The translations under genes and the position numbers were made by a program. The notes beneath the pieces are model-generated. The model saw only the letters and a program-made list of their open reading frames with translations, did not search any database and was not told where the DNA came from. From NCBI RefSeq assembly GCF_029168945.1, contig NC_083604.1, positions 71,254,211 through 71,318,210 of the forward strand: DNA of 64,000 nt. The letters run 5' to 3'. Below, one piece after another: positions 2,591-57,459 of the stretch. Source of the DNA: Cannabis sativa (taxonomy: Eukaryota; Streptophyta; Magnoliopsida; Rosales; Cannabaceae). The stretch's first letter is position 1. Every line of letters begins with the position of its first letter.

Positions 2591-2639
2591 ATATATACAT
2601 ATATATATTATTATTATTATTTTATATATATTTGACTCA

Positions 2640-3105: not shown

Positions 3106-3465
3106 AATTAATCATCACCTATATATATTTGATAATTATGTTCAGTATGCCATTATTATAATATGTAGACTTTTGGCGAAATGAGTTTTACTTTTGAAAC
3201 TACAATTAACTCGTAAACTAGATCCTCTAATTAATATATTTGACGTTACTACGTACAGAATATATATATATCGATCTATATATACATATATAATGAAATG
3301 ATCGGATGAGTACTGGAGACATAAATTCATCGAAGAGAGACCAATCCGAAGTTACATATATATTCGATCATTTTATCACATTCATTGCACCTCATTATCA
3401 CAAAATTAATATTGCTCAGCAAACAGGGATCAGATCCTCATGAATTAATCATGATCATACTTCCA

Positions 3466-3496
<31 letters not shown>

Positions 3497-5159
3497 ATAT
3501 ATTAATTATATGGTGTGTCGTGTTCGATTGTTAAAAAAACTGCAATATTATAATTTATACAGTTGTGTATATATAACTTGCAAAATGCAGGGAGATTGAA
3601 GATCATAATTAGTCCACGGTCATATATATATATATACTCAGTAATCATACATATATATATTTGTACTATTATAAATAACTAGTACAAGTTCCCAAAGCAA
3701 TTAATGAACACACAACGAGCATGAGAATATATATACAATGTATAAAATATATATATAATGTAATGTATCAGAGGAATCATGTGCCTTGCCATAATTACAA
3801 TCCTAAATTTAAGTAACAATTTTTCTTCTTTTCGGAGACTCTTTTATTATTTTGCACCATATAAGCTCTTTGTGGGTTGTAAAAGTTAGTATTGGTTGGA
3901 TCCAATTATTAAAATGTGATTATATAACTTATTAGAACAAAATTAGTGTAACCTATAAAAATAATATAAAATAAAAAAAATTATAAAAATATTGAGATAA
4001 TGAGTTTTTTTACATTTTTACTATAACAATTTTACAAAAATATTGTGTTTCAGAATGTAAAATAAAAAAACAATCTAGCAAATAACATAAAACAACTATA
4101 AAACAATAAAAATATAACTACAAGGCAAGGCAAGAGATAATAAAATATTGATCTAATTGCAATAAGTAAAATAATATTAACTCCTAAATATATTTTTGTA
4201 TTATGTTTTTTTTTTATTTAGTTTTGACAATTTAATTTTTTTTCATGAAATTTGTTGTTACAATTTTATTCTTTCATTTTTTTTTTTCTATCCTCCTTTT
4301 TGAGTATAATGATAGATAAAAAATAATTATAAACTAAAAAATAACCAAATAAATACACATAGAAATTTCATTGCCTTGTATTTTAATTTTGCCAAAAAGC
4401 TTACAATCACATATTAAAATAATTAAATTCTTTTAATTAATTATTAATAATAATAATAATAACTAAAAAATATTGACTTTTTCTAAAAATAAGATTATTT
4501 TTTTAGTGAGTTTTTAGACAACGACGTACTCATGTCATGTATAGAAACAGCGAAGAAAGTGGTCCCTTCTTAAGCAAAGGAATTTTGCATCGTGTGCTGT
4601 AGAGAACTCTAGTGTTTTTTGGGACAATAAGCATTAGATATATATGTAGGGGAAAAAGATCACTCTAGCAAACCACATGGTATGGCTCAAACTTTACACG
4701 TTAAATTATATTTATATAATCAATAACAAATTTTTATATTCATCAAACAAAAAAAAAAAAACAAATTTTTATAGGTGCAGCATCAATTTTGCTTTTATTG
4801 AAGTTAAATCATGATCAATTATTGAAAAAATTTAAATAATTTACATTATTAAATACATAATTCAAAATAGTGTATGTATATATATAAAAAAATCATAATA
4901 CCATAAATTATTTTAAATTTTAAAAAAATGAGCTGAAACCATAATATAAATTATTATATAGAGAAAAAAAAAGTGTAATCCTTTGTGTATAATTGGATTT
5001 ATAAAAAATAAAAATAAAAAAGTACAAATGACACCCACTATCTTCTTCTTCTCCTATCTTTATAGTGGTGGGTACCCTCCGTTTCTGTATGTAGATTCTA
5101 GACAGGGTAGGAGTGTAGGACCTTAACATCTATGAATGCTTCCATTTCCATGTAGATAT
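3106..5159. other. AT-rich intergenic DNA with (TA)n tracts
   Basis: Long AT-rich stretch with repeated TA microsatellites near 3260-3300, 3465-3500, 3620-3660 and 5157-5168. No coding content, RNA gene or bounded element was found. Confidence 0.6.
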
Positions 5160-6330
5160 ATATATATACTAGTATACTGTTACGTGCGATGCACGTATGT
5201 TATGTTTTATATTAAGTATTATATTATGAGTTCGAAAGGAAATAAATGAATCAAAAATAAATAATATTTAATTTGGAGAGATTTGAATAATAAATTTAAA
5301 TTAAACTTTTATGTCCAGTATAATAGAGTTTAAATTAAACTACAAATGTTAGTAAAAATATATTGGAAACAATAATAATAAGGTTATAATATATGTTGCA
5401 TTTGTTCCAATAATAGCAGCAAGAACATCTTTGAGCTGGAAAAACAAATATTACAAAATTAAGAATAACTAACACTTGAAGGAACATTCTCACTACCAAG
5501 AAGAAATCTTAGATATATATTACAAATATTACAAAATTAAGAATAACTAACACTGGACATTCTCACTACCAAGGAGAAATCTTAGATATGGAGTCAAAAA
5601 CAGAGCAAAATTAAAATTAATGTGTACAAGTATTCCTAAGAAGGACACTTTTTAGAAAAATAAAGTATTAGATATATATGCATTGGGTGAGATCATGAGA
5701 TTTGAACCAAAGATTGTTTAATTTTTTAGGTTTAATTATTAGATATATGCATTGGGTGAGATCATGATGATATATAGTAATAATATGTGTTTGCCTGTAT
5801 GGGTGATGAATGGGTTAATCGTAAAGATTGTTTAATTTGTTGGGTTTAATTATTAGGTTTATTTTTTGAAATTTGAATGAAGCAGTGTAAAAAAATTTCA
5901 AAAATTGTAGTTTGATAGAGAGATATGTAAGTTAATCGTAAATATTATTTAATTTTTTAGGTTTAATTATTGGGTTTATTTTTTAAAATTTGAATGAAGT
6001 CGTGTAAAAAAATTTCAATGGTAAGATTTGTTAGAGAGATATGTGGGTAGGATATTTTTTTTAATTTAAAAAAAGATTGTAGCCGTGTAAAATAATTTCA
6101 AAAATGGTAGGATTTGTTAGAGAGATATGTGGGTAAGATATTTTTTTTTAATTTAAAAAAAGATTGTTTAATTTTTTTGGTTTAATTATTGGGTTTATTT
6201 ATTTGTTAACGTTTAACGTTAACAGTCTGTTAAGTTAATCGTGTAAGGCTAAATAAAAAAAAGAATCGTTAAACCAAGAATCGTTAAACCAAGAATTGCC
6301 GTTAGATAGACACTTTTAATATATAAAGAT
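5160..6330. repeat. dispersed AT-rich repeat with internal tandem array
   Basis: The left end has ACTAG followed by a CG-centred palindrome (ACGTGCGATGCACGT, about 5182-5196). Similar ACTAG-plus-palindrome starts occur at 25742 and 28449. Inside, about 5690-6200 holds four to five diverged tandem copies of a roughly 110-120 bp unit containing TTTAATTATTGGGTTTATTT and AGAGAGATATGTGGGTA. The right end has a duplicated AGAATCGTTAAACCA (6262-6290) and finishes in AATATATAAAGAT. The transposon class is not recognised; a Helitron-like or other non-autonomous element is possible. Confidence 0.45.
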
Positions 6331-15757: not shown

Positions 15758-18743
15758 ATGAAGTTTATGAAACTTGGATCTAAGCCTGATTCTTTTCAGA
15801 CTGATGGAGACAATATTAGGTATGTGATCCTTCTTGAAATGTTTTTCCCTTTTTTTTTTTTGCTTCTTCTAGAAAAATATGTAATTTCTGGGTTGCGATA
15901 CTAAACTCATTTTTGCCTTTGTTTTGAAAATAAGTATAGTAAAAAAAAAAATTGGACTGTTGACATATTAATTCTCTCTTGATTGTTCAAGTCTTGTAGC
16001 TTTACAAGAAAAAAAAAGATAAATTGATTTAATCTTTGTATTTGTTTTATTTCTAATTTGAAGAACTATGATTGTATCTATTGACATTTCATCCAACACA
16101 TTTACAAAATGGAATGGTGGGGTCCAACTAAATTGTGTAGTGTAATATCTTATTTATTTGAGGCTTGAAGATTACTCATAGGATTCCCTTTCCATTAAAT
16201 TACATTTCTCAAGGTTGCTTACTTTTAGTTTTCTAATTCTTAGTCTTTAACATGACCCAACTACTTTGTGGATCCAGGTATGTGGCAACAGAGCTGGCAA
16301 CTGACATAGTCATTAATGTTGGAAGTGTTAAGTTCTATCTACACAAGGTATGAAACCCATTTGGTTTTGAGAAATAAGCTCACTATAAAGTGTAGGCCTT
16401 TTAATTTAATCTTTGCAATAACTGGGTTCACAGCCATGTTTTTATGTAATTATGCAAACAATGTCCAGATTAATGTAATAGTTAGAAATCTTCACTCTTA
16501 AACTTGCATGAGAACTGAACTGGTTTATTCTTATATATTCAATTCTGTGCACAAGTATTATCTCTCAATGGACCTACTTAAGATAAGATAGCTATTGTTT
16601 TGGGTTTTTAAAACAATTGTATTTTAAAGCAACATCCTACGGTCCATTTTTGAATTGTTTTTCCATTACTACTCTATTACTTTACCAAATCATATATGCT
16701 CTTAGAAGTATACATAGAAAACCTGCTTTAATTTGTTTGTGTGTTGTGATATCAATGAAAAGAGTTTTAGGATAGTATGTGACGTAATTTGATTAATGAG
16801 CTCTCCTGTATTCTTATATCCTGTGATTTCTGTAGTTTCCCCTGTTGTCGAAGAGTCCCCGCTTGCAGAAACTGGTTTCAAACACAAATGAAGAAAACAG
16901 TGATGAGATTAACATTCATGATATTCCGGGCGGTCCTGCTGCTTTTGAAATCTGCACAAAATTCTGCTATGGTATGACAGTAACACTAAATGCCTATAAT
17001 GTGGTTGCAGCTCGATGTGCAGCAGAGTACCTTGAGATGTACGAAACTGTTGAGAAAGGAAATCTCATATACAAGATTGAAGTATTTCTCAACTCCAGCA
17101 TATTTAGAAGCTGGAAAGACTCCATTATTGTTCTTCAGACTACAAAGTCTCTTTTCCCGTGGTCTGAGGAACTTAAAGTTATCAGCCATTGTCTTGATTC
17201 TGTTGCTTCAAAGGCCTGCATTGAAACTTCCAGGGTGGAGTGGTCTTATACCTATAACAGAAAGAAGCTCCCATCTGAGAATGACCCTCTATGGAATGGT
17301 GCTAGAAAACAACCGACGGTTCCAAGGGACTGGTGGGTAGAAGATCTTTGTGAGCTTCAACTTGATTTGTACAAGCGGGTCATAACGACAATTAAGTCAA
17401 AAGGAAAGATATCTAATGACATAATTGGAGAAGCATTACATGCTTATGCTCTAAGAAGACTTCCCGGTTTTAGCAAGGGTGTGATTCAAGGTGGTGATGT
17501 CTTGAAGTGCCGATTAGCAGTGGAGACCATAATAAGGCTGTTGCCCACAGAGAAAGGCAGTGTCCCCTGCAGTTTTTTGCTCAAGTTATTAAGGGCAACC
17601 ATTTCATTAGAATGTGGGGAAGCTGAAAGACATGATATCATGAGAAGAATCAGCCAGCATCTTGAAGAGGCTACAGTGGCAGATCTTTTAATTCGATCAC
17701 CATCTGATGAGACAACCATTTACGATGTTGATATAGTGCAAAGCCTGGTTGAAGATTTTTCGACTCGTGATCATACTGCTGTGATTGATCCTCTTATAGA
17801 AAATGAGTTTTTGGAGATTAGAAGCCCAAGATATAGCTCAGAAGCTTCCAAGGTTTCAGTAGCGAAACTTATTGATGGTTATCTTGCTGAAATTGCTCGC
17901 GATCCTAACTTACCTCTGTCAAAGTTTGTAAGTCTTGCTGAAATGGTCTCCAGCTTCTCCAGACCATCTCATGATGGAATCTATCGTGCCATTGACATGT
18001 TTCTCAAGGTTAGCTAGCTCCTGAATATTGTTAGGCTCAAGCTTTCATTACAATTAATGTTGTACTCGGGCCATTGAAAACCTCCTACCCTTTTTCTTTG
18101 CCACGAGAAGTCGAGTAATTGTTGTTTTATTCCTTGAATGCAGGAACACCCTGGGATCAGCAAGAGCGAGCGAAAGAGAATATGCAAATTGATGGACTGC
18201 AGGAAGTTATCAGCTGAGGCCTGCATGCACGCAGTACAAAATGAGCGGCTGCCACTTAGAAGCGTTGTTCAAGTCCTTTTCTTTGAGCAGGTTCGAGCCA
18301 CTACAACAGCCGGAAACAGAACGCCAGACTTACCAGGATCCATCCGAGCCTTACTCCCTCCTAGTGGATCCCATGGAAGCTCCAGGTCAACCACCACTAA
18401 CACAGAAGAGGACTGGGATACTGTGCCAACGGCCGAGGATATCAAAGCCATAAAAGGGGAACTTGCTACTCTAAGGCTAGGAACTGGGGATCATGGTGAA
18501 ATTGGAAGTAAGAGGAGTGGTTGTGATGGGACCAAAATCATTGTTGCAGAGAGAGCTGCATCAAATAAGAAAGGCTTGATCATGTCAAAGAAACTCTTCT
18601 CTAAACTTTGGTCAAGCAAAGACCGTAGTGGCTCTGGCGATATCAGTAGCTCAGAAACTTCTGAGAGCCCAGGTTCTACAAATGCAGAGGAGACTAAATC
18701 TAGTACTCCCTCTGCCAGAAGCGGGAGGCATTCAGTATCATAA
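15758..18743 (+). CDS. NPY2-like: NPY2-like BTB/POZ-NPH3 protein (4 coding exons)
   Basis: Coding exons are 15758-15819, 16278-16347, 16836-18008 and 18144-18743. All junctions are GT/AG and phases agree, giving 634 aa ending at TAA 18741-18743. The start [11 protein letters not shown] is the hallmark N-terminus of this plant family and is the first ATG after the last leader acceptor. Residues about 25-120 form the BTB/POZ domain ([20 protein letters not shown]). Residues about 208-486 form the NPH3 domain, from [11 protein letters not shown] to [18 protein letters not shown] and [11 protein letters not shown]. The tail is Ser/Thr-rich. NPY proteins act with AGCVIII kinases (PID/WAG) at the plasma membrane in auxin-dependent organogenesis and root gravitropism; BTB-NPH3 proteins can also act as CUL3 adaptors. 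Sequence similarity points to the NPY2/NPY4 branch rather than NPH3 or RPT2. It is the only intact host gene here; no frame damage is seen. A Copia element lies 700 bp downstream. Confidence 0.93.
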
Positions 18744-25682: not shown

Positions 25683-26220
25683 AAATGTCATTATTTTAAA
25701 AATTTTAGTTAAGGAGCCTTTTACATTATTTATTGTTTAAACTAGTAAATTTTTCGCGTTTTGCGGCGGATGTATTAAATATTTTAAATTATACATAAAA
25801 AATAAATTATGTATTTTAATTAATAATAATTACTTAATAAAATTATATTAAAATTTTAACTTTATTATTAAAAAATTTGTGACATAAATACTTAAATTGT
25901 TAAATTTGTTGCTAATAAATATCGGAATTCGAAAAATTGTAGCATAAATCCTCAAATGACTAAATTTAGCAGTTTTATAATTTTATTGGTACCAAATTTA
26001 ATGGTCTTGAACGGAGACCAAGCCAAAGAATAAGAAGAAGACGAATTTGAGTTTAGATTCGATTCATTTAAGGTTTAATTTTTATTTTGATGAGTGTATG
26101 TTGAGTTTTAGGTTCAAATTTTATTGTGTGTGTTTTTAATGTTTGAGTTTTAGTGTTTTACTGGGGTTCCACTGTTTGAGTTTGTGTTTATGAGATTTAT
26201 TTTTATATTTATTTATTTAT
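25683..26220. other. AT-rich DNA with an ACTAG/CG-palindrome repeat start
   Basis: Contains ACTAGTAAATTTTTCGCG (25741 onward) followed by TTTTGCGGCG, comparable to the starts at 5172 and 28449. No gene seen. Confidence 0.45.
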
Positions 26221-26594
26221 GGATAAATATTATTTTGGACCCTGTGTTTTACAAAAGTTACTAATTAGACCATATGTTTTGTTAAATGACAAAATGGACT
26301 CTGTATTTTCTAAAATTGTACAAATAGGACCCTGAACTAATTTTTTATCAAAATAAAACTTAATAATAATCTAATCTAGAGATATTATGACAAAACTGGT
26401 TACATTTTCTGTATTCGTTCGTGTTAGAAATTGTCTTAAAGTTGGTTATATTAAAAAATAAAATTGTTAAAAATTGAGCTCAGGATCCTATTTTTATTAT
26501 TTTGAAAAATATAGGGTCTATTTTGTCATTTAATAAAACAGATGGTCTAATTGGTAATTTTTGCAAAACACATAGTCCAAAATGGTATTCACCC
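26221..26594. mobile_element. MULE-type MITE with long inverted arms
   Basis: Starts GGATAAATATTATTTTGGAC and ends, in reverse complement, GGGTGAATACCATTTTGGAC. The two arms stay alignable for about 130 bp. It is flanked by the 9-bp direct repeat TTTATTTAT (26212-26220 and 26595-26603), the duplication length of Mutator-like elements. At 374 bp it codes for nothing. Confidence 0.8.
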
Positions 26595-42818: not shown

Positions 42819-44046
42819 TGAAATTCCGTATTTTAATATTCCCAGTTTGATTATTTAATTAAATGATTAATTAAATGCGGAATAATAAAGCTAGTGCGAA
42901 AACAGTTTTCGTAGTTACGAATGCAACTCTGTAACTCCGGAGAAACCGAGAAAAACAAAATAAAGGCATAAAAGTAAAAACACACAAGATTTTTGTACGT
43001 GGTTTCAACAATCCTTTCAGATTGTTACTAGTCCACGGGGCCACGCCCAGAGATAAGATTCATTAGATCGGTATCAAAAATACAAAGTAATTGACTTATG
43101 CATAAATAGACTCCCTCTTATTGTATGACGCAAGCTTGATGTATTCCACCTACTAACCGAATCTTGATAAAACTCCAAGTGCTCGAACTCCCTTCGATCA
43201 CCTTGAAGAGTGCTTGAATCCTCCCGATTCAAGGCTTAAAGGCTATCTCCCGAAAGCCTATACAACCATCTCCCGAAGGTTGTGTGCTTGTATCCTCCCG
43301 ATGCAAGACTTCAAAAGCAATCTCCCGAAAGCTTGTAAATACCCTTCTCCCAGAAGGTGCAACGATGTTCTTCTTCGTTGTAGACTTGAATACGGACTCG
43401 AGACAATACAAACAACAAATAAACAGAGTAAGAGTAGAACAACTCTTCTCTACAAATCAAAGACTCTCTTTTCTAAAGATATGAATGAAATTCAAAGATA
43501 CAAGAGAGGTACCAAGAGAGGTACTAAACAAAGACACTCTTTCCTTAAGATATGAAAGCAATTCTAAGTGTATGAAAGAGATCCAAAACCTAGCAGCTAT
43601 AAGATGTATTTATAATGAATATACATCTCATAGACAGCTTACATTCGGTCTGAACAAGACCTCAACCCACTAGAAACTTCCCTAAAATAATTCTTCAATC
43701 AGTCCAGGAATTTCCGTTTCTGTACATACAGAATCGTGGGCAGTAACTACAACTTTCCTTTTATAGAAAAGGAAAGTCTAGCTCCGGTTTTCTCTTCAAG
43801 AAACCTGATCTAAGAAAATGGGAAACTCAACACAAGATCAGAATAACAGCTGGTTAGATAAAAAAACGAAATGGGTAACCAAACTTACCATTTTTACCTT
43901 TTTTCCAAAAATAGGAAAGCTAGACAACTTTCCTTTCAAGTTTGATTTACACAAATATGGAAACCATATCAATATATGCCAGCCGAAATATACATTAAAT
44001 AATAAAATATTTTTGTCAATTAAATATGCCAAAAATGGAATTAACA
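42819..44046 (-). repeat. Sirevirus-like 5' LTR (1228 bp)
   Basis: Partner of 33056-34281. It carries the same CTCCCGA hairpin cluster at 43212-43357, except that the last core reads CTCCCAGA. It ends at 44046, followed by the duplication GAGTG. Confidence 0.93.
43212..43357 (-). repeat. hairpin cluster with CTCCCGA cores (5' LTR)
   Basis: Same six hairpins as in the other LTR; the last is slightly altered by one added A. In the element RNA this copy would lie in the 5' leader region. Confidence 0.8.
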
Positions 44047-44051
44047 GAGTG

Positions 44052-44768
44052 TCATATCACCGTTTCATTCATCTTATTTATATATATTGATTGATTATTT
44101 TTTTTTTCCATTTCAAAAAAATAATAATAATAATAATAAAATTACTTTCACATAAAATTTGCATAATTCTCACATCTTTAATGTTCAATCTATATTTTTA
44201 TTTTATTTTGTTTAAGATTTAGCATCACTTAAACTAGGTATTAGTAACATACAATGCATGTTTAAAATGCAAGTTATTGGTATATATATTTTTTTTATAC
44301 AATATATTTCTTTTTAGTTGTATGATATTTATTATTTTTAGATGTTATTTTCTTACTGTGTTATGAATAATAGTAATATATATTTTACAATATATTTCTT
44401 TCTTATATATATTTTAATGTAAGTATATAATATTATTGCTATGCTATATATATATATTTAATTTTATATATATATTTTAATTATATGATATATCATTTAT
44501 TTTAGATAATATTTAGTTTCTATTTAATTATATACAATGGTAGTATATAATTTTGTTACCATGGTATATATATTTTAATTGTAGTATATAATTTGGTTAA
44601 CATGGTGTATATATATATATTTAAAAATATGTTATTATTATTATTATTATTATTACAAACTGATAACGATACAATAAATTTTATTATATTTGTAAGTGTT
44701 TTATATCGCCAATACAGTACAAAGCTCGTTAAAGAAACTTTTATAACATGTTTAGTTTTATTAATATA
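44052..44768. other. AT-rich spacer with (TTA)n
   Basis: Remainder of the interrupted tandem repeat followed by AT-rich DNA with TA and TTA tracts (44632-44655). No gene seen. Confidence 0.6.
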
Positions 44769-45075
44769 CATTACAAAAAATCTTACTTTTAGTCACAACA
44801 AAACTTGTGACTAATTATAAATCATCATTCCTATGTTGTGACTAAAAAGTCCGTGACTAAAAGTATTAGTTACAAAAATTACAATTTGTTGTGACTAAAT
44901 GTAATTTTAGTGACAATACTTGTTGTGACTAAAACTAAATTAGTGACAACTTGTATCTAAATACTATGTTTTAGTCACAAGTAACATTTTGCTGTGACTA
45001 AAAGTCACATTTAGTCACAAAAAAATTGTGTTTTAACTAAACAGTTGTCACCAAAAGTAACAGTTTTTTGTAGTG
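44769..45075. mobile_element. CACTA-type MITE
   Basis: 307 bp with ends CATTACAAAAAATCTTACTT and, in reverse complement, CACTACAAAAAACTGTTACT, flanked by a 3-bp duplication ATA (44766-44768 and 45076-45078). The interior is built from many copies of TAGTCACAA / TTGTGACTA in both orientations, likely subterminal binding motifs. It has no coding capacity. Confidence 0.82.
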
Positions 45076-45425
45076 ATATACTAAATTAGTTGATATAAAG
45101 GTTGTTTACAGAGGTCTAATTGTTGTTTCTCCACATATTACTATTAAGGTACAATTAATTATCGATCAGTGACAAAAAAAATACTGACAAATAGTTTCTT
45201 ATATATACACGTCCACATTTAACAAATCTAGTTGCAATTAAAATGCACGTTAGTTTAATAATAGTTTTGCTGTTACAATATCATAGTATTATAAAAACAA
45301 TGCTCGAAATTATCAAATACATGACCTGAATAGATAAAACACGATTGTTGTAATATTCATTTGTATTAAATATGTAAAATTATTAGTTGGCTCGCAACAG
45401 ATATAACTGTTGCATTACAGTTTCA

Positions 45426-45662
45426 TCACAATTGTCTTGAAGTTGACTTCTTTCCCTTTTGGCCGTCGGAGTTGGAATTTTTTTCAGGCAAAGACACCTT
45501 CGACTTCGTCTTCACTGGACGACGACCACCTTTAGCCGAGGGAGCGAAATCATAGTCATCATCGTTGATGATTGGGCGTTTCTCTTTAACCTTGTTAGCA
45601 ACTATTTTATGACCTATTTTTGAAGCTTTTTCTAGCAATAGAGATGGAAAAAGTAAAGTCAC
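45426..45662 (-). pseudogene. small ORF or gene remnant, unknown function
   Basis: A 78-aa frame with GC content above its surroundings. It is Lys/Arg/Asp/Ser-rich (KVKEKRPIINDDDYDFAPSA, GGRRPVKTKSK), a disordered, possibly nuclear tail. I do not recognise the family. A potential acceptor-like pyrimidine stretch precedes it on the minus strand, so it may be the last exon of a lost gene or captured host sequence. No larger gene could be assembled around it. Confidence 0.3.
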
Positions 45663-46285
45663 AGGTAATAGCCGTTATAAATACGAAATGAAAGATATAT
45701 AAAAGAAAACTGATAAAAGAGGCAGTTAGAAGAAGAAGATGGCAAAGGTTATGGTTGGGAGGTAGTTTTAGTGAGTTTTGAACGTGGGTTTCGAAAGGGT
45801 AATTAATGGCTGGAATGTGGTTTTAAAATAAAAAATTAAGAAAAAAAAAATTGAATGTTAAATTTAAAAATAAAAAATGAAAGTAAAACGAGAAAAAAAA
45901 AATGTTAATATTCGAGTTGACATGAATGGATATGTGTAAGTTGTATTTTGGTAAATAAAATCTCATTAAAGACAAAATTGTTGTCCAGGTCTTATGAAAG
46001 TATTTTTTTGAATAAAGTGTTAATTTGTATTTTTCATGTAAAAACTTTTTTTATTTTTGTTAAAAAAGTTATAGTATATAAATTTATTACTACAGTGTAT
46101 TAATTGTTTTGTGTTACGATATTAAATATATTGTGCTACCATTTAAGGCACATAATAGCACCCTAGTTAGTTTTAGGCTAAGGCGAGCAAGGTTGCGGCT
46201 AGAGCCCATCTAGTCTAGGGGCACAAATGAAGAAAACGTTATTTTGAAAAATACACATTTTTTTATTAATTTTTAAAAATATAAT
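45663..46285. other. AT-rich spacer, no gene seen
   Basis: Plain AT-rich sequence; a GC-richer patch at 46165-46230 (CTAAGGCGAGCAAGGTTGCG) is not coding. Confidence 0.55.
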
Positions 46286-46620
46286 AAAAGCATCTCTAAT
46301 GGTAAAAAATTATGGGATGCTTGCTGAGATGGATAGATAAAGTGACAAAATATTGAGATGCTATACCATTAGAGGAAAAAGAATACTATTCTACGAATAT
46401 ATGATGCTATCATTATTTTTTTAATAAAAAATTATTGTTGCTAAAAAATTAAATAATAATGTGTGAGATCATAATTATATTATTTTTGAAGAGTGCTATA
46501 CCATTGGAGTGATTTTAGAAGTAAGAGTGCCAAAAATAATGTGGAAGAGAGATAAAATAAAAGATTATATTTTTAGATGATGTGAAGATTTTTAGCATCT
46601 GCTACCATTGGAGATGTTCT
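46286..46620. mobile_element. hAT-like MITE (CATCTCYAATGG ends)
   Basis: The left end has GCATCTCTAATGGTA and the right end, in reverse complement, GAACATCTCCAATGGTA, the ending of a widespread plant MITE group. Internal copies of GCTATACCATT repeat the theme. About 335 bp, no coding content. Target duplication not resolved. Confidence 0.6.
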
Positions 46621-47131
46621 AAAGGTCCAAAAAAATTATTTTTCTTAAGGCCCAAATACAACTTAGGGCTGACCTTATCTACTCCTTAGAATATTATATG
46701 TAGAAATTACACAATATGTGAAAAAAATTATAAGAGTTTAGTTTTTTATGGCATAAATAAATAATGCTAAGGGGTTATGGGTTTTTTTTTTTTTTTGTTT
46801 TACATTTATATGGGGTTTTTTTATGCCATATTTTTGTAAAAAAAGATGGAGATTCTATATTTGTAAATAATAATAAGTTTTGCCGGAAAAGTAACCTTTT
46901 AGTTTCTTTACTACAAAATTCAATTTTCAAATACTAACTAATTTCTAAAATAACTTATAAGAAACTAAATTTTTAAATATGATATTTTCTCTGCTGTATA
47001 GGATATGTTGGTGTTACTTAAAGTAAAATTATTTAGATGCTAGAAATTTTTTAAATATGAAATATTATAATATTTATTGTAGTAACCTATAAAATAAATT
47101 GTATACTTATTTTGTTCAAATATAATATTTA
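46621..47131. other. AT-rich spacer, no gene seen
   Basis: Homopolymer-rich AT sequence without features up to the target duplication of the next LTR element. Confidence 0.55.
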
Positions 47132-47136
47132 GTTAT

Positions 47137-47386
47137 TGTTATAAAATAATATAAAATAATATAAAGTAGATGAGAAGAAAGAAGAAGAAGATGAAGAGAG
47201 AAAGAGAAAGTGAATGAGAATTTCTGAGTTATTTATTTCAATGGGGTGAACCCCTATTTATACAAATACAAGAGTGAGATATTAAGAAACTAAGAAAAAG
47301 GGAAACTAAGGAAAGAGGAATGTTGATTACAATTCATGGTAATAAATAAAAGATTTGGACATCCACATAAATATATATTTATAACA
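47137..47386 (-). repeat. 3' LTR (250 bp)
   Basis: TG...CA termini, GTTAT to the left, polypurine tract to the right. CTATTTATAC (about 47262-47271) could be its promoter box. Confidence 0.92.
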
Positions 47387-47397
47387 CTCCCCCTTGG
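47387..47397 (-). other. polypurine tract
   Basis: CCAAGGGGGAG on the minus strand, directly against the 3' LTR. Similar AGGGGGAG motifs recur at about 47471-47478 and 48041-48048. Confidence 0.8.
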
Positions 47398-47442
47398 ATG
47401 TCCATAATAACTGCCTTATTAAAAATCTTGCTGAAAACTTGA

Positions 47443-47763
47443 TCAAAGGAAAAAGAGTATAGTGTAAACTAACTCCCCCTCATTTAGGCATTTGTGGAGA
47501 TCTTCTAATCGACGAATTTCGATATTATCTGCCGTCTTCTCAAATGTTGATGTTGGTAATAACTTTGTGAATAAGTTTGCAAGATTGACACTTGATTGAA
47601 TATGTTGAACACCAATATGAATTTTCTTGAAGCGTACAAAGAAGAATTTGGTGAAATGTGTTCTGACTCTATCTCCTTCAATGTACCATCCTTTTAGTTG
47701 AGCGATGCAAGCAGTATTATCCATAGAGAATTGCTTGGGTTGATACTTCTTTATTGAGTGCAA
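47443..47763 (-). pseudogene. Copia RNase H C-terminal fragment
   Basis: A 106-aa frame matching the end of Copia RNase H: FSMDNTACIAQLKGWYIEGD, then the HFTKFFF region, VQHIQSSVNLANLFTKLLPT and FEKTADNIEIRRLEDL. The catalytic DN of the DN.(S/A) motif is present, but the N-terminal two thirds of RNase H and all of RT are missing, so it cannot act. It is the only coding relic in this element and ties it to Copia. Confidence 0.8.
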
Positions 47764-47858
47764 TTCATATGTTTCCCAAATATGCTATGTCAATGATCTC
47801 ACTCACACACATTCTCTACTTGCTTCATAAAATGCAAGTATGTTAACATGATTTATAG

Positions 47859-48030
47859 TTGCCTCGTTAAAAACCTTGCCAGAAAAACCCAGTGGGACAA
47901 AATCTGAGCTAAGGGAAAAAAGAGTACAATATATATTTCATATTCATAACTATTTACAAGTTGCCTCGTTAAAAACCTTGCCAGGAAAACCCAGTGGGAC
48001 AAAACCTGAGCTAAGGGAAAAAGAGTGCAA
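47859..48030 (-). repeat. two tandem copies of a 70-bp pol-tail block
   Basis: 47859-47929 and 47961-48030 are near-identical, beginning TTGCCTCGTTAAAAACCTTG and ending AAGAGTRCAA, separated by 31 bases. A third, diverged copy is recognisable next to the LTR (about 47411-47460). Together they look like triplicated 3' ends of the parent pol, each near an AGGGGGAG motif. Confidence 0.8.
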
Positions 48031-48060
48031 CATGAATATGTCTCCCCCTCATGCACATAT

Positions 48061-51000
48061 GATCCATAATTCTTTTGGTGATAATAAATCTCATAAGATT
48101 ATTGTTATCACTTTTAAAATATCACAATATACAATCTTTGATCATATATTTTCTATAACTCTTCCAGAGTATGTATGGACTTCTAAATTATAGATGAGGG
48201 GTTCGTGGAACATTAGTCTTTATCCAACTAATTGTATCATTCATGTGTGTACACAACTTTGTTCATACGAAAATTTAAAATTTCAAGTAGATATGAACAT
48301 AACACATTAATGGTACTACAAATTTTCATTTGTGACAATGATGGTACTCCAAGACCATATATTTATTCCATCTTGTTTTATGATCTTAATTTCCATATCA
48401 AATGATCATATATCTATAATTCTTGATACATATGAAGTACTTCAGGACTTGATACTAATGAACAAACTTTATACATTAATATTTCTCGAAATACAAAAGA
48501 AATAAAAGTTTGTTCTTCAATTAATCAAAAACTCTTCAAGAGTCTATCACAACGTATAATTTACGTATTTATACTGCATAGACAACCATACGTATTTTTC
48601 AAACAATAATTTACTTACATGTCTTTATTTCATACAAAGATCTTTGTCATATAGTGCGCGCGACTTAGAATTTATATCACTTAAGACATGTATTAAATTC
48701 TTCTAGAATTTTTAGATAAGGCTTATTTCAAATTCTCACTATATTAGGAGCTCCAAATAAATAACCTTTTGTTGCAACATTTATGTGACGCTTATAAATC
48801 CTCATAAAATATATTCCAGGCTATAATCAAATCATGATTATATTTTCTCAATATTTAAGCCTTACTTCAATCAATCTCATGTCTATGCAAAATTTGTACA
48901 ACAATTCATTATGTACAAATACATATATGCAAATTTCTCATTAGAAATATTTATTTGCACACCCTACAGGTCTTACTTCACTTTATGTGAGTAAATTTGT
49001 CTGGATTGCGTCATAATATTTTGGCCAAAAATCAAAATGTATGTCGATGATTCTCGACAAATCTAATACCATGATCCTTGCTATCTCATGTTAGTTTATT
49101 GCATATGCAAACATTCAATATTTATTGTCGACAAAAATTTCAATAAATGATAATTTCCTCCCATATTGACATAACTTATAGAGATCTCTTTAAATTACAT
49201 ATTTTTCAAATATGTTTATCATTTATAGGTACCTATATAGAATCACTTCAGGGATTCAATTATGATCAAATGTGTTATGTCTAACTTCTCTTGGGAGTCT
49301 TTTCGAGTACCGTTTTCATCACGGTTATCATTTTAATACTTTATAACATTAAGGTATCTCCATGAGTGCCTCTAGATTTAACAACTTCAGGGCAAATCAA
49401 ATGAACATTTATTAATAATTTCTACATTGTTCATTTACGCTTCAGGCGTTTTCAACTCATTCTATCTCAACTTTGAATAATATTGATTTGCAGTTGGTAT
49501 ATATCATTTTGAACTATATTGTTCTTATATACTTTGTGCAAGGATCATTTTTCAAAAATTATCATCGATCCCAACTGCTTCTCTCCCCCTGATCGAGAGA
49601 ATTTTTAAAAATTGTGATATCTAATAATATTAATATACCTGTAGGGATTTCAATATATCACAATGAATCAATATTTATTTAAACTCATATATACTATATG
49701 ACATTGAACTTCAGGTTCAATAAACTTCAGTTTCTAAGAATGAGTCATACGTGTATAATTAGAAATACATAAATTTACACATTTTGTAAATGCATGATCA
49801 TATAATCTTATCACATCGATAAGAAACTATGCAATAAAAATCTAACAATGGCTCAAGATTGTTAAGAAAATATAATTTAAATATTTTCTATGTGCAAATA
49901 TATGCACATTCTTCTTTTGAGCCTTATAAATAACAATGAGAAGAATCTTCTGGTTCTTCAACAAAATTTAGTCAAATTCTTTGACAATTTATTGCATATG
50001 ATTGATCATGTCAAAATAATTCAATTCATGAACTTCAGGTTCACTATAATTTGTATTTCAATGAAACTTTCAAAATGTAATGTAAATTCATTACAACATA
50101 ATCATTACAAGTTTCATTTTTATATACACGAATAATATAATTATATTATTCTCCAAAACATATACACTCTTCAGGAATCACTGTCATCAATTCAATGATG
50201 TGTATAATTTAAAAGATACATGACAACTTCATCATGTTATTGTAATGGTCAAATAGATATAACCATAACATATCATTCATTTTTCCTGATATCTTTTTAA
50301 CAAGTCGTCTAATTTATTAATAGACTATTCATCAGTCTAATTATCATGATTTGATATATTATATATTTAAATGTATAACAAGTACATATAATAAGTTATT
50401 TATTATCACTTTCATAACTAGATAAAAGTTACACATCTAGGTACATACAAAGACATTTTACTACTCAAAGTAGCAATTGTATGTAAGACTTCTTCAGGAA
50501 GCTTTTCAACTAATCATTTTGTGATTCTTTATCACTTTGATTATATTGGATCACTAACAAATATTAGTAAATTATATATCCACTTTTGGGAATATGCAAA
50601 CTGAATTATATGGTAACTATATATTTACATATCATGTACCAACAATAGTTTGAAACTATTGATTTCAAGAAATAATAAAATATGTATATATTAATTTGCT
50701 TCTGGCATTACCAATATATGTGAAATCTATATTCTTTGAAATAGAATTTCATGTCTATTCATTCTCTTTAGGTAATGATATTTAAATATTCTAAATGTAC
50801 AATAAGTTTGTACAATTCACATTCTATTAAATAATCAAGTATACTTTTATCTTGACTATAAGTGTGTCCGTACTACAGGTACGCGACCACTATTATTCAA
50901 TTCCACACATGATATATAGATTTCATGCACTTTGATTGTGTGTGGTATCTCATCTTTTGGTTATTTCCAATTTCTTCTGGAAATATTTGAGTAGCAAACA

Positions 51001-51900
51001 ATGCCATTGATTATTTAAAATCATTACATTCACTTCGGGGAATGACGTTGAACAAGTAGAACATTATTATAAATTTCTTAAAAATTTATTACTTGTTCAT
51101 ATATAAAAAGAAATTACTCAGCAATTTCTTTAACAATATTTCAAAGAATATATGAATACAATTTTTGCATAATCTCCAAGATGTATATGCAAAATTTAAT
51201 CTTTAATATATATCACATGCAATAATTTTCAACATTGCAAGCAATAACAGTGTATAATAACATGACTAATACAAACAATCTTTAAAAGTAGTTGACTTCA
51301 ATTCGTATCATTCTCTGCAGGGAATGATGAACAATAAATACATGTCTCATGTATTTAAATAACATTAGTCATGCTCACTGTTATTCTTATACTTTGATGT
51401 TTCAATGCAATTTTCTTAATATTCTTTTTAGGTATTCAAAACCCACTATAAAATTGCATCAATAATAATCATTTTTAATGATTCTTTAGTTGTATTCACA
51501 TAAATACAATCATTTTTTTTGACAAATATAAAACATTTACTTCTGGAAATGTTTGTCAAAATCTATATCGATATTAAATTACTTTTCATTGTCCTCAAAG
51601 AATACAAGAACATATATATAAATATGTATTCATCTCTTTCATTATATATCCATCAACTATATAATGGATATTACATTTGCATAATCTTCAGGATACATGC
51701 AAGATTTTATTGAGGACGCATAATCATCAGGATATATGCAATATTTTATCGAGGATGCATAATCTTCAGGATATATGCAATATTTTAACGATGATGCATA
51801 ATCTTTAAGATATATGCAATATTTTATCGAGGATACATAATCTTCAGGATATATGTATAATTTATATAGATTTTCTTTATCATATCATAGGCAAACATAT
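48061..51900 (-). repeat. field of short hairpins, many with CTTCNGG loop core
   Basis: No coding content and no homology I recognise. Inverted repeats of 5-10 bp arms with short loops occur almost continuously. Examples with the shared core: 49240-49257, 49437-49449, 49703-49721, 49940-49959, 50029-50043, 50489-50501, 50970-50984, 51027-51044, 51533-51552. Arms differ from hairpin to hairpin. Others have 8-10 bp arms without that core (for example 49867-49891, 51066-51086, 51654-51680). On the element RNA the cores would read CCNGAAG. Frames at 49890-50135 and 51519-51713 are fortuitous. Confidence 0.75.
51676..51875 (-). repeat. tandem ~40-bp hairpin repeats
   Basis: About five copies of GCATAATCTTCAGGATATAT followed by GCAATATTTTATCGAGGAT. 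Each copy can pair GCATA with TATGC around ATCTTCAGGAT, so the hairpin theme has here been amplified in tandem. Confidence 0.85.
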
Positions 51901-52032
51901 ATTGTAAATATTATGAATGATAAGAACATAATATGTATATATATATGAATCAAAAATAAATATATAAAAACATATACATATATATATAATATATAGATAT
52001 ATATAGATAAAAAGAAAAAAAAAAACCAAAGG

Positions 52033-52113
52033 ATTCTTGAAATTGTTTCAGTCAGATAAGTATATATATAAATATATATTTAGTGTATCGTGACTTTGAA
52101 ACAATTCAAGAAT
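52033..52113 (-). other. long stem-loop in the element's 5' leader
   Basis: Arms 52033-52054 and 52091-52113 pair over about 20 bp (ATTCTTGAA.TTGTTTCA with TGAAACAATTCAAGAAT), with small bulges and a 36-base AT-rich loop. On the minus strand it lies about 75 bases after the 5' LTR, where packaging signals are usually found. Confidence 0.7.
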
Positions 52114-52175
52114 TTTAACAAGATACTTACATTGGGTCTTAGGCAGAGACTCATGCTTGAAGCTTGGGCAGAGAC

Positions 52176-52189
52176 TCGTGCTGATAACG
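52176..52189 (-). other. putative primer-binding site, non-Met type
   Basis: CGTTATCAGCACGA on the minus strand abuts the 5' LTR. It is not the usual initiator-Met sequence; which tRNA (or tRNA fragment) it matches was not determined. Confidence 0.5.
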
Positions 52190-52439
52190 TGTTATAAAAT
52201 AATATAAAATAATATAAAGTAGATGAGAAGAAAGAAGAAGATGATGAAGAGAGAAAGAGAAAGTGAATGAGAATTTCTGAGTTATTTATTTCAATGGGGT
52301 GAACCCCTATTTATACAAATACAAGAGTGAGATATTAAGAAACTAAGAAAAAGGGAAACTAAGGAAAGAGGAATGTTGATTACAATTCATGGTAATAAAT
52401 AAAAGATTTGGACATCCACATAAATATATATTTATAACA
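52190..52439 (-). repeat. 5' LTR (250 bp)
   Basis: Partner of 47137-47386, followed by the duplication GTTAT. Confidence 0.92.
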
Positions 52440-52444
52440 GTTAT

Positions 52445-55100
52445 TTCTTTATTAACAATTTATAAAAGGAAGGGAAATGTTACTTTTATCTTGTTCATTA
52501 ATTTTTATATTGAAAAAATATATATATATTTCTCACAACTCAAAATATAGCTTCAAATGGTATATTAAATAATAATATATCATATAATATTGCCTAAAAA
52601 TTAAAAAATAAAATCATAATTTTAAATCTAAATAAACAACTAACTAAATGTGTACGAAAAAAAAATTATCTTGAAACAATTTTTTTTTAAAAAAATAACT
52701 AATTGATATATTATTTATATCAAAAGCAATTAAAAAATTATTTTTTTTAAAACTTACAAAACACTGAAATTGCTGAAGGCAAGAATTTTCAAGTTTTTTT
52801 TTTCTATTTTTGGTAATTATTTTAAATTTTAGTATTTATGCTGATGTGGCACATCGGTATTTGTACAAATAAATTTATTGAAGTTATTTTGGTAAATAAA
52901 ATTAATTTTAAGTATAATATTAAAAAAAAACCTAATTAATACCCATTAAAAATATTCCTTATATATTAAGTAAATTAGCCTAAATAATAAAAAGGACTTT
53001 TTTATTTTTACACTTCAAAACATCGTATAGAAACCCCTATTACAACTAGCGCTGAAACCACTTTAAAAATCTAAACTGTAAATTTGAAAAAAAAAAAAAG
53101 TATATAAAGTAATTAACCATAATAAAATTGACAAAAATTAATTTAAAACTAGAAATATTAAATTCATCAAAATATATGACATTTTTACAATATTATACAA
53201 AAATAAATAAAAAGTAATTATTTCATATAATTAACTTTTTTTTTTAATAAAAATCATAATATTATTAAGAAAATTGAAACTAGTATATATATATATATAT
53301 ATATTTTTAAAAAAATCATATTTATGTAATTTCCTAAGAGAAAAAGGCATATTTTGTATAATTTCGACATTAATTAATCTCACCACTATATCTTTTGTTT
53401 TTTTTTAAAAAATAAATAATAATATATGACCATTTACATATATAAATATAAAGGAAATTGCTGGGTTTTCATATAATTTGTGCAAAATATAGTTTAATTT
53501 TTCCAAAAAAAAAAAAAAGTGAGAAAAGTAGTTAAGGACAGCCAGTTACCTGCTTAGGTAATTGGTTACCTTATAATATTTTTCTTATATTTTTTTAAAC
53601 TTTTTTTTAATATATTTCCCATAAAATAATTTTATTGAAAAAAGATATATTTTTATAAACTTTTGCCTTAAAATTATAAAAACGAAGATTCTCCAAAAGT
53701 AAGACTGGTTTGGGCTATTACGGATCCCTTAAGTCCAGGCCCCAAATTCCTTTAAAAAAAATCCAGGCCCCAAATTAGAGAAAGTTGAATTGATTTTTTA
53801 AGGGTCTAATAAATGACAATTTTACTGAAAACCATTTGTCAAGCCAATCTTGTAGTATTTTTTGAGTTTGTCTATTGCTTATCATAAAATAGAATAATAA
53901 TAATAATCATAAGGAAAGATTAGCAAAATTCAACAAAGACAAGTATCAACAAATCCTATATTTTGACTCAATAAAGAAAAAAAAAAAAAAATACTATACG
54001 AAGATCTTCTAAATAAAAAAAGGGCAACGGTATAAATCAGAAATTGGAAATAAAATATGGAAGTGATCTGAAATAAACCATACAAAAAAGAGTTTTTATA
54101 AATAAATAAATAAATAAAATGTGGAGTCTGTAGTACGTACGTAAACAATGTCATATTATTCTTTGACGATAAGACGTATTAATTATTCTTTATAAAAATG
54201 CCACACTAAATTGACCTACTACACTTTATAACCAACAACTCTTGAATCTTACATTATTATTCATCAATCACTAAATACTCATTTTTTCCCATTAATTTTT
54301 CTTAAAAAAAAAAGAACATTGTCAAGTCAGAATGCAGATTGATTTATTCTAATTTTTCCACTTTATCCCAAAATTTATCCCATGGGATACAAAAGAGTCA
54401 AAGAAAAATAAAATTCTTATTAACAAAGTGGACCACCTCAATAGAAGATGCTCGAAATCTAAATATATATATCTCACATGAACCAAGCTGTTACTTTATA
54501 TATTTTTATAAAGTCCACACTCACATCAAGTACACCTACCTTCACTTCCTCTCATTAATTCTACTTTTATTATTATTATTATTATTTTATTTTTACACGA
54601 AAAAGTAAAAGATTTAATTTTTAGGCCGAAAAGGAAGCGTTTCATATTAAAATAAATACCTTTAGCCGTTGGGCAAATTGACTTGCCAAATTGGAGGAAG
54701 ACTTCACATTTTTTTTTATCAAGAAAACAAACCGCCGACCAAGTTTGACTACATTTCGACCGCCACACTTAGTTTTATCGCACTATATGTGTCTCTTTTC
54801 CTCATCAAAACACAATCAAAGTACACTTTTTTTTCCAAAGAAGAAACTCGAAAAATAAATTCAATATTAACGCATATGAAAAATATTACTTAGAGAATAT
54901 AATGGTGTTTGATATTACTTAAATATGGTGTTTGATATTACCAAAATATGTTATATATGGTGAGTAATTTAATATTAAGTTCTATATATATCTTATATAA
55001 AAAATTGTTCACTAATCTTTCGGGACGGACCCACTTGTGTTAATGGGGCTACAGTTCCCATTAATAAAAATACTATTTTTTAAAAAATTTAATTTAATTT
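52445..55100. other. AT-rich intergenic DNA, no gene seen
   Basis: Contains TA, AAAT (54100-54118) and TTA (54568-54587) microsatellites, a doubled CCAGGCCCCAAATT (53737-53776) and a doubled ATGGTGTTTGATATTAC (54902-54944). Frames at 53930-54154 and 54339-54893 lack protein character. Confidence 0.55.
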
Positions 55101-55104
55101 TTTT

Positions 55105-55540
55105 AAGGGTGTCTACACATTTGGTATTCTGTGTTTTATCTAAATACAAGTTTGGTACCCTGTATTTTTAATAATGCTTATTTGGTACCTTGTATTTTAC
55201 AATCATACCTATTTGGTACCCTTAATTTAATTTTTTTTGATAAAATTTAATCAATACAATCAATAGTCTAAAATTTTATGAATTCTAAATTCAAATTTAT
55301 TTATTTGATTACATATAATTGACAATTGTTTGGTTAAATTAATAAAACTGTATTGATTAAATTTTATTTTAGGGTACCAAATATTTACAATTTAAAAATA
55401 TGAGGTACCAATTTAAAACTGTATTTTATTTTAAAAATATGTACAATTTAAATTTTATTTTATTTAAAGTATTATTGAAAATATAAGGTACCAAATATAT
55501 TTTTGGTAAAAATACAAGGTAATAAATAAGTATATTCTTT
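55105..55540. mobile_element. foldback MITE with TTTGGTACC arms
   Basis: The left part repeats TTTGGTACCNTGTATTTT three times and the right part has the same motif inverted (AGGTACCAAATAT). The arms are 60-70% alike by eye over about 130 bp, a design like the MULE-type MITE at 26221. Ends and duplication could not be fixed. Confidence 0.5.
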
Positions 55541-56037
55541 TTTTTTAATTTGATAATAATAGATTAAAATAGTAAAAAAATTCCACGTAATAAAAATTCT
55601 GAGTCGGTCGACACCATCATCTTATTATAGTGTCCAATACTTAATTTTTAATAATAATAATAATCATGTGTAACGTATATACATGAGAGTAAGGAAAAGG
55701 TAGAGAGATAAAAAGGAGAAAGTAAGTAATTCTTTTTCAACATTATCTGTAATTATTTTGATAGGTACATTCTTTTATTTTTGGGTACATAGATTTTGTT
55801 TTGTCTAAGTTGTGAGTTTGAAAGTGGACTTTGAGAGTTGAGCTTCCACACCTTATAATATGTAGCTGTGATTTAGGTTAAATGATAGATTATAGGTCAG
55901 ACGTTGCCTAAACCCGCGTGACCGTGTACACAACTTTTTCACCTACTTTGCCTAATTCCAACTTAATTTTATCTTTAAATCTTACACAAATATTATATTG
56001 GATTATAATGGTATAGGACAAGTGAATTATTCATGGG

Positions 56038-56502
56038 AAATTTGATTTTCTATACTTAGAAAATCAAAAAATTTGATTTCTAAACCAATAATTTAAACCC
56101 TAAAAAAACTATACTTTTTTTTCAAAACCCCAAAAATACCCCTCTCATTATTCTCAACCATCTCTCTCTCTTCCTCCTTTCTCTCTCAAAGCAATCCCAC
56201 CCGAAACCCAACTAAGAAAGCACCAAATCCAACCGATCCACCTCCGGCGTTCCACCCAAAACGCCGATCGACCACCACCCACGGTGAACCACCGCACCCA
56301 CGGTAGACCGCACCCACCCACCGACGGTAGACCGCACCCACCCACCCTAGATCGCACCCACCTACTCTTGACCGCCCCCACCCACTTCCTGCGATTTTCT
56401 CTGAAACTTTTTTTTTTTTTTTCCTGCGATTTGAGAGAGGGAAGAAGACAAAGGTCCGATGGTCGGACCCATCGGACCCCCAAGGTCCGACCATCGGACC
56501 TT

Positions 56503-56535
<33 letters not shown>

Positions 56536-56924
56536 CTCGCGATTCCGGAGAGAGAGGAAGAAAGGGTCAGATGGTCGGACCTTCGGGTCAGGTCGGACCC
56601 ATCGGACAGAAGGTCCGTAGGCTAATTTTTTTTTTTTTTTTTTTTTTTTTCCCGCGATTTGAGAGAGAGGGAGAGAGAGGTCGATGGTCGGACCTTGGGG
56701 TCCGATGGGTCGATTGGTCGGACCCCATCGGACCATGGTCCGACCATCGGACTCCGGGGTGTGGGATTATTGGGGCCAGAAGCTAGATAGAGAGAGAAAG
56801 AGAGATAGTTTTAGTTTGGGGGTATTTTTGGGGTTTTGAAAAAAAAGGTATAGTTTTTTTAGGGTTTTAATTATTGGTTTAGAAATCAAATTTTTTGATT
56901 TTCTATGCATAGAAAATCAAATTT
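56038..56924. mobile_element. foldback element with GGTCCGATGGTCGGACC modules
   Basis: Inverted ends of about 105 bp differ at roughly five positions and begin AAATTTGATTTTCTATRC. Between them are pyrimidine-rich sequence, a (GACCGCACCCACCCA)-type short array (56290-56395) and three tandem modules. Each module has a poly(T) run, a CGCGATTTGAGAGAGAGG-like block and palindromic GGTCCGATGGTCGGACC motifs (about 56407-56500, 56505-56620, 56622-56760). Several frames (56154-56786) run through it in both directions but follow the repeats and homopolymers, so I do not call genes. No target duplication was found. Confidence 0.7.
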
Positions 56925-57459
56925 ATGTGTCTTCATTTGGCTATATTTATATTTAAATAATGGGTAGAAGAAATAAAAAACTAAAAATCAGTTTTTATTT
57001 TGTTTATATCTTTTTAATATAAGGATTTTTTTTAATAAATTTTATTCAGAAGCTTTTTATTTGTTTAGGTGGAGCACAAACAATATATTTTTGGAAGTCC
57101 AAGTTTCATTTAATAATGGTCCACATCCACATCCACATCCACATCATAGAATGACTTGGTTATTTATTTTTTTGTTAAAGGAGAGCTAGTCAATTTGGCA
57201 ATTACTCCTTGCTGACTGACTCATGTGTGGAATTGGATGTGTCTGTTTGGTCTTATTGCGTAATCTTGTGCTTAGTTTGCACACGTAGCTTTGTGTACAA
57301 GACTACTTTCGCAACACTCATATTTCAGATACCTAAAGAATAAACAATATAAATTTATTCTGTATTTTTAATATTGCATAATTGCAATCTCAACCCGAAA
57401 TAAAAAATAAACACAATCGCGATCTCTTAGTAAACCTTTGTCTCTCAATAAAATACAGT
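56925..57459. other. spacer with (CCACAT)n
   Basis: Contains a short CCACAT repeat at 57121-57145. No gene seen before the LINE homology begins. Confidence 0.55.

Follow-up and report, generated by a model that had tools for sequence, protein, structure and literature searches.

Non-autonomous retroelements are abundant in plant genomes, and the large retrotransposon derivatives (LARDs) and other plant elements of this kind have long terminal repeats (LTRs), a primer-binding site (PBS), a polypurine tract (PPT) and a long interior without gag-pol, and are presumably moved in trans. The element considered here has the same outline. It is a complete non-autonomous LTR retroelement of the Ty1/copia type that occupies positions 47137-52439 on the minus strand (5,303 bp) of a 64,000-nucleotide stretch of Cannabis sativa contig NC_083604.1, which is called the window in the following, and the list of open reading frames (ORFs) contains none of at least 150 amino acids in it. 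The element encloses the whole region 48061-51900, in which an earlier note on this DNA had described hairpins with a constant CTTCNGG loop and variable stems. Like the LARDs, it lacks an intact gag-pol and has many copies that are built alike (among them five near-full and two partial ones), but its LTRs have only 250 bp, whereas the original barley LARDs reportedly have long LTRs, and its gag-pol-derived interior and its constant loop also set it apart.

The dispersed packaging signals of single-stranded RNA viruses and hepatitis B virus resemble these hairpins in that there are many short stem-loops with a common loop motif and variable stems, some of them bulged. Those signals (loop motif RGAG) are known from systematic evolution of ligands by exponential enrichment (SELEX) and from in vitro assembly (PMC7612645), whereas the hairpins described here reside in a retrotransposon and are known from sequence alone. 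Ty1, which belongs to the same Ty1/copia superfamily, also needs signals in cis, and a minimal Ty1 requires 380 nt from its 5' end and 357 nt from its 3' end (PMC4974528). Ty1 Gag is described as having no zinc finger (PMC8396678), unlike the Gag of the coding Cannabis relative discussed below, which has a C-X2-C-X4-H-X4-C stretch (with Pfam matches just under the curated cut-offs). Titles and beginnings of abstracts in the searched literature contained no description of a CTTCNGG-type loop motif or of packaging signals in plant copia elements, which is not a proof of absence. What appears to be new here is that the interior of the element is a decayed gag-pol region and that a coding relative carries the same hairpins.

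The motif CTTCNGG occurs 16 times in 48061-51900, where 0.15 ± 0.36 occurrences are expected (200 dinucleotide shuffles, maximum 1), and all 16 are on the plus strand, while the reverse complement CCNGAAG is absent from that region. Together with the variants CTTCAAG, CTTCTAG, CTTCCAG and CTGCAGG there are 20 core sites, and 14 of them close a stem, in comparison to 6 of the 64 remaining C-N5-G sites of that strand (Fisher p = 2.8e-7), when a stem is defined by at least three extra Watson-Crick pairs that are either flush on the C-N5-G or follow one 5' base. Two forms recur, one with the stem flush on C[TTCNG]G and one with a single unpaired base on the 5' side. The unrelated arms around a constant core that the earlier note had seen are confirmed, and its nine listed hairpins are all found where it had placed them. 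On the plus strand, the core hairpins include AAACATTT-A-CTTCTGG-AAATGTTT at 51531-51554, CATTC-A-CTTCGGG-GAATG at 51027-51044 in a gag remnant, ATTTC-TTCTG-GAAAT at 50970-50984, TGAAC-TTCAG-GTTCA at 50029-50043 in a pol remnant (VNLKFMN, as compared to VNEKFAN), GAAGAA-T-CTTCTGG-TTCTTC at 49940-49959, ATTGAAC-TTCAG-GTTCAAT at 49703-49721, ACGC-TTCAG-GCGT at 49437-49449 and GAATC-A-CTTCAGG-GATTC at 49240-49257, as well as the core-variant hairpins ATCATTC-T-CTGCAGG-GAATGAT at 51307-51328 and AAATTC-TTCTA-GAATTT at 48695-48711.

A tandem array of 39-bp units at 51678-51872 (minus strand) contains five cores, each unit forming a hairpin of the CTTCAGG type (GCATAATCTTCAGGATATATGC or variants of it), and the same array has four to six cores in seven other copies. 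Three of its units (51686, 51764 and 51842), which by eye pair only with a bulge that lies outside the stem rule, account for half of the six core sites that fail; the others are 49385, 50699 and 50169, the last of which does form a stem in part of the sister copies. A general excess of hairpins accompanies the constant-loop set: when non-overlapping perfect hairpins with loops of 3-12 are counted, there are 28 with arms of at least 7 (6.2 ± 1.8 in 30 shuffles, maximum 9) and 12 with arms of at least 8 (1.8 in shuffles). Stem-loops with a common loop motif are above chance, too. In five near-full sister copies, 13 of 22, 14 of 22, 15 of 22, 14 of 21 and 15 of 21 core sites are in stems, and neither these five nor the window element nor two diverged non-autonomous copies (L052 and L068) have any core site on the opposite strand, which makes eight sequences with a strictly one-stranded motif. 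As the loop motif is confined to one strand, what is read is probably a single-stranded molecule, for which the genomic RNA, an antisense RNA and the first strand of cDNA are candidates.

The same hairpins are found in a second family of the same genome, represented by L046 to L050, the LTRs of which share 84-86% identity with the LTRs of the window element and the 3' end of which (part of the LTR and the pol tail) is 80% identical to it. L046 carries the window-type box and PPT, and in addition gag-pol reading frames. All 9 core sites on its antisense strand are in stems (13 of 158 other sites, p = 2.2e-9), in contrast to none of three on the sense strand, and a control in which synonymous codons were permuted within four ORF segments of L046, such that protein and codon usage were kept, produced 0.93 ± 0.84 such hairpins and never more than 4 in 300 shuffles. 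With a slightly different motif list, the values for L047, L048, L049 and L050 are 8/9, 7/7, 7/8 and 8/8, with 0/3, 0/2, 0/3 and 0/3 on the opposite strand, but these four are not independent, as they are 98-99% identical to L046 over the coding part. A more diverged coding relative, L067 (91-94% at the DNA level), has stems at 6 of 8 core sites (15 of 139 other sites, p = 9.9e-5) and at none of two on the opposite strand, and it contains CTTCTGG as a full core in the same context as the window hairpin at 49940-49959 (49947-type). Core sites in the rest of the window are never in stems (0/13 and 0/10), nor are those of copia3, one of the two other copia elements of the window (0/1 and 0/2). 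Two further candidates with closely spaced CTTCNGG motifs, L065 and L066, were rejected: tblastn matched neither of them to the L046 frames, and their core sites were scattered, with 1/2, 1/3 and 1/3 in stems. Among two pattern-matching stretches in IMG/VR none could be confirmed as a coding relative.

The L046 family, with 216 candidates in the genome, all 40 scored ones being 99-100% identical, has probably been active recently. Its frames align by tblastn to the other copia elements of the window in integrase, reverse transcriptase and RNase H parts, with E-values down to 6e-50, and a partial Pfam RVT_2 match at 447-1451 is just below the cut-off (29.3 vs 31.6 bits) in a scan that covered the frames other than the long one at 1342-4149, all of which points to a copia-type pol in this coding partner. 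Ordinary blastn at 1e-5 detects no match between the L046 coding region and the window interior. A sensitive search nevertheless reveals a colinear chain of the interior, 48061-51850 on the minus strand, with the L046 gag-pol (score 212.5, maximum 135.6 in 12 shuffles), and four further copies give chains of 197-229 with shuffle maxima of 101-147, so that all five copies, with 12 shuffles each, agree. The best DNA match of the interior is 48994-49205 (E 8e-9), and peptide remnants follow each other in the expected order: TCSTSFPEVN at 51057-51001, the zinc-knuckle segment of Gag at 50922-50848 (minus strand, E 0.027, DNA match 1.7e-4), VNLKFMN at 50068-50024 and LKNQKILL at 49961-49938, where the sequence of the hairpin at 49940-49959 still reads as in L046 pol. 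These remnants are individually weak (E 0.03-0.4). The C-terminal pol (RNase H) tail at 47473-47853 on the minus strand is 57% identical to the L046 frame over 129 amino acids (tblastn 1.75e-34). Taken together, the colinear chain and the ordered remnants show that the interior is gag-pol that has decayed beyond coding, and the earlier note has to be corrected in that the interior has this coding origin and that a coding relative has the hairpins as well.

The hairpins are common to coding and coding-dead elements, they exceed a control that preserves the protein, and they are more frequent in the coding-dead element, and for these reasons a cis-acting RNA role seems to be the best explanation. 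Packaging by Gag would be the most economical such role, as a non-autonomous element must obtain its packaging in trans, and it would also explain why the hairpins outlasted the genes and why both partners have them. We therefore lean, tentatively and with somewhat less than even confidence, towards dispersed cis-acting RNA hairpins that were retained after the loss of coding and that probably are packaging signals bound by Gag. In such a scenario, a non-autonomous derivative of a copia family would have lost gag-pol coding and kept the dispersed short constant-loop hairpins, apparently adding further ones to the inherited set. The loop, written C[UUCNG]G on the antisense strand, would be C[CNGAA]G in the genomic RNA, with a flush stem or one bulged base, and the hairpins would act in cis on this RNA, most likely as multiple sites for the zinc-knuckle Gag of the partner, whereby a coding-dead RNA could still be packaged and reverse transcribed. 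The wider proposal that an LTR retrotransposon lineage uses a dispersed hairpin code (constant CNGAA loop, free stems) in its genomic RNA, written through a protein-constrained coding region, and that a parasitic derivative dropped the proteins and enriched the code, is a bolder one and has to be regarded as rather doubtful. If the packaging reading is right, selection at the RNA level and at the protein level has been separated in one natural experiment, in which the coding was lost and the RNA signal stayed. It would then provide a sequence-level handle on how non-autonomous retroelements borrow the particle of another element, with a testable prediction of Gag binding, and the idea of dispersed packaging signals would come to cover LTR retrotransposons as well, among which the well-studied Ty1 speaks for signals at the ends.

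A number of results weigh against this reading, chiefly the Ty1 precedent, the thin covariation and the Watson-Crick symmetry of the stems. Internal deletions of up to 5 kb have no effect in Ty1 (PMC4974528). As to covariation, the earlier note had taken the independent stems for covariation within a single molecule, but this is not evolutionary covariation, and among the copies there is little of the latter: two Watson-Crick types occur in only 3 of 99 informative stem pairs of a 37-copy alignment, and of 23 pairings touched by differences between subfamilies, a pair is gained or lost in 17, neither state is paired in 5, and only 1 is compensatory. In L067, the stem at 1880 that corresponds to the L046 2229 hairpin has been lost through an uncompensated change. 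One core double change is found in the hairpin at 51531-51554, where C-G at 51534/51551 in the group of the window element is T-A in diverged copies and separates the subfamilies (among ten diverged copies readable on both sides, six have both changes, three neither and one only one); the inner stem is ATATTT/AAATAT in several diverged copies. Individual hairpins can be matched between L046 and the interior to a limited extent. A global MAFFT alignment, which gave 52% identity overall with the ends included, was not trusted for this purpose and was replaced by the colinear chain and a test with masked flanks, in which 2 of 11 proposed pairs were supported (1/400, and 12/400 for the hairpin at 51027-51044, which matches L046 4601-4618) and 2 more weakly so (51/400, and 31/400 for the hairpin at 49240-49257, a possible homologue of the L046 2229 hairpin). 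The other seven found no support, including ACGC/GCGT vs GTCC/GGAC, for which covariation is not claimed because of its value of 150/400. Intact hairpins are less frequent in L052 and L068, which are diverged and non-autonomous (6/18 and 8/19), and copia2, the other one of the two copia elements of the window and a member of another lineage, has a weak excess of its own (2/7, Fisher p = 0.029, no opposite sites), with two core hairpins being reached in 2 of 100 codon shuffles. Taken over its whole length in 17 windows, the folding of L046 is not consistently stronger than that of shuffles (plus-strand z -4.4 to +2.1).

In the interior of the window element, twelve consecutive 350-nt windows with starts at 47851-51701 all have z below -2 on the plus strand (-2.3 to -5.1), while the minus strand, for which that note had proposed the test, gives -0.6 to -3.9. 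The adjoining LTR/pol-tail windows at 47151 and 47501 (z 0.01 and 0.52) and the leader window at 52051 (-1.10) are not in this range on the plus strand, and in the flanks 44001-47501 and 52051-54151, 14 of 18 windows have plus-strand values of -1.1 to +1.9, the remaining ones, at 44701, 46101, 46451 and 53451, having -9.0 (44701), -2.1, -2.3 and -3.1. Equally or more negative windows exist elsewhere, in parts of 19.5-26 kb and 33-44 kb, and hairpin density alone is thus not unique to the element, unlike the constant loop. When the sites are folded locally (± 75 nt), pairing with P > 0.5 is reached by only 9 of 20 window core hairpins on the plus and 7 of 20 on the minus strand, and by 5 of 9 (plus) and 7 of 9 (minus) in L046. 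The antisense (plus) strand folds slightly better than the sense strand in the interior, and the G-U evidence marks neither strand as a selected RNA, both of which count among the points against a role of the genomic RNA: without G-U pairs both strands fold alike (z -3.55 and -3.27), G-U pairs are below the shuffle level on both (69 vs 104 and 114 vs 163), and single stem changes lead to the two wobble types equally often (39 and 38).

Such a Watson-Crick, strand-symmetric pairing, with no G-U bias in the mismatches adjoining the stems either, is what one would expect if short perfect inverted repeats are produced and mended by a mutational process, namely snap-back copying or template switching in the course of reverse transcription or replication, so that the hairpins need no function and CTTCNGG is a sequence at which the first strand of cDNA preferentially turns around. 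Perfect RNA hairpins have been proposed to arise and persist through template switching, and they resemble the present ones in their short perfect Watson-Crick stems, although a constant loop, as found here, is not mentioned for them in the part of that article that was consulted (PMC8794818). Hairpins with any loop also exceed the codon shuffles in all three coding elements studied, two of them being other copia elements (45 vs 27.1, 40 vs 27.3 and 35 vs 21.9), so that a tendency for hairpins is general, while the loop is largely not common to them. A mutational origin predicts unconstrained hairpins, however, and at A/T positions the constant loop bases vary at 0.0035 in an alignment of 36 other copies (with 12 diverged ones in addition from 50700 on, and the window left out of the rates), as compared to a background of 0.0173, a value as low being obtained in 45 of 2000 random draws; the core stems are at 0.0092 (164 of 2000), and the free N position of the loop at 0.0251 is not conserved. 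The support for selection from this is modest, and the C/G bases of the loop do not share it. Core C/G positions are no more conserved than the background of the same context (CHH 0.0499 vs 0.0498; CHG 0.0676 vs 0.0576), which speaks against selection, but they vary 10-20 times more than the core A/T bases (0.050-0.068 vs 0.0034), as expected from methylation-driven deamination after insertion, and this may mask a conservation. In 14 of the 36 copies, the fold suffers less from the substitutions than it would from a random placement of them (mean rank 0.284 on the plus and 0.379 on the minus strand, 0.5 expected; 136 segment-copy pairs from copies that share ancestry). Moreover, protein constraint in L046 should resist insertions, and yet 9 of 9 sites are stems there, and no template-switch event turned up, though no systematic search was made. 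The hairpin-amplifying process that the earlier note had offered as an alternative hence agrees with the symmetry and the low G-U content and disagrees with the conserved A/T bases of the loop, and we consider it unlikely.

The better folding of the plus strand could also point to a trans-acting factor other than Gag, such as a host protein, a translation or silencing route in which the stems give rise to small RNAs, or an antisense transcript with the C(UUCNG)G loop, which we take to resemble the UUCG tetraloop with one extra base and thus a variant of a stable tetraloop. With 3-8 bp, the stems are short for a processing by Dicer-type enzymes, however, and a search of 44000-56000 in Rfam at E ≤ 1 gave no match inside the element, only two outside of it and below the gathering score, which leaves this explanation rather improbable. 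Slightly less probable still is a passive inheritance, by which the hairpins would be relics of a constraint on these nucleotides in the coding ancestor and would serve no purpose in the non-autonomous element. It would agree with the exact position of some hairpins on surviving coding remnants (LKNQKILL, FPEVN) and with 50583 and 50766, where the full core and stem are present in some copies and absent in others, but there are more core sites in the interior than in the coding relative (20 vs 9) despite an overall identity of 52%, and the tandem array multiplies one hairpin. A structured RNA that functions in packaging or Gag binding is left as the best explanation, and the suggestion of the earlier note is borne out in part, as its hairpins do exist, exceed chance and have a loop that is confined to one strand, with the covariation remaining thin.

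Besides the copia-type pol of the partner, the assignment to the Ty1/copia type is based on the two LTRs, which are 100% identical (250 bp each, the 5' LTR at 52190-52439 and the 3' LTR at 47137-47386, minus strand), on the target-site duplication GTTAT, read in the sequence at 47132-47136 and 52440-52444, on the PPT AAGGGGGAG at 47387-47395 (minus strand), also read in the sequence, and on a presumed PBS region, CGTTATCAGCACGAG at 52172-52189 (minus strand), which adjoins the 5' LTR and is assigned by position only. A similar stretch adjoins the 5' LTR of L046, and CGTTATCAGCACGAG seems to resemble the complement of the anticodon arm of tRNA-Ile. Downstream of the PBS there is a long leader hairpin at 52033-52113 (minus strand), which also exists in L046 at 5425-5525, with fold z values of -5.70 and -3.65 and stems with CTTGAA/TTCAAG in the window and CTCGAA/TTCGAG in L046. 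It is a candidate packaging or dimerisation signal, and its presence in both elements is a further point for the packaging reading. Near the 3' end there are two copies of a box TTGCCTCGTTAAAAACCTTGCC...CCCAGTGGGACAAAA, 102 bp apart at 47857-48022 (minus strand), and this box motif has 1,089 copies genome-wide; one sequence, L069, has only the box and about 230 bases in common with the window element.

The window element is one of hundreds of copies in the Cannabis genome. A first look with the interior gave 926 candidates, and the 40 closest ones, to which the scoring was confined, are the window itself and 39 others at 92-96% identity. The seven copies fetched first have the same architecture at 90-97% identity by segment, five of them near-full (L009, L010, L011, L013 and L015) and two (L012 and L014) with a part of the interior missing.

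Elsewhere in the window, a host gene at 16836-18014 has 99% identity to a Cannabis protein. The two further copia elements of the window lie at 19.5-25.4 kb and 33-43.6 kb. Both have RVT_2 above the cut-off, gag_2, CCHC and rve are above it only in the former, and matching short stretches are present near the ends of both. Inside the span of the second one, the ORF 34989-36419 matches Pfam Transposase_32, a plant transposon protein, and may represent a nested insertion. Very strong folds on the plus strand at 44701-45050 (z -9.0) and 26201-26550 (z -8.7) are perhaps inverted repeats resembling miniature inverted-repeat transposable elements. Repeated units at 56408-56709, about 113-115 bp apart, start with T-runs and contain TCGGACC inverted repeats, and the mean fold z for 56001-57000 is -3.4.

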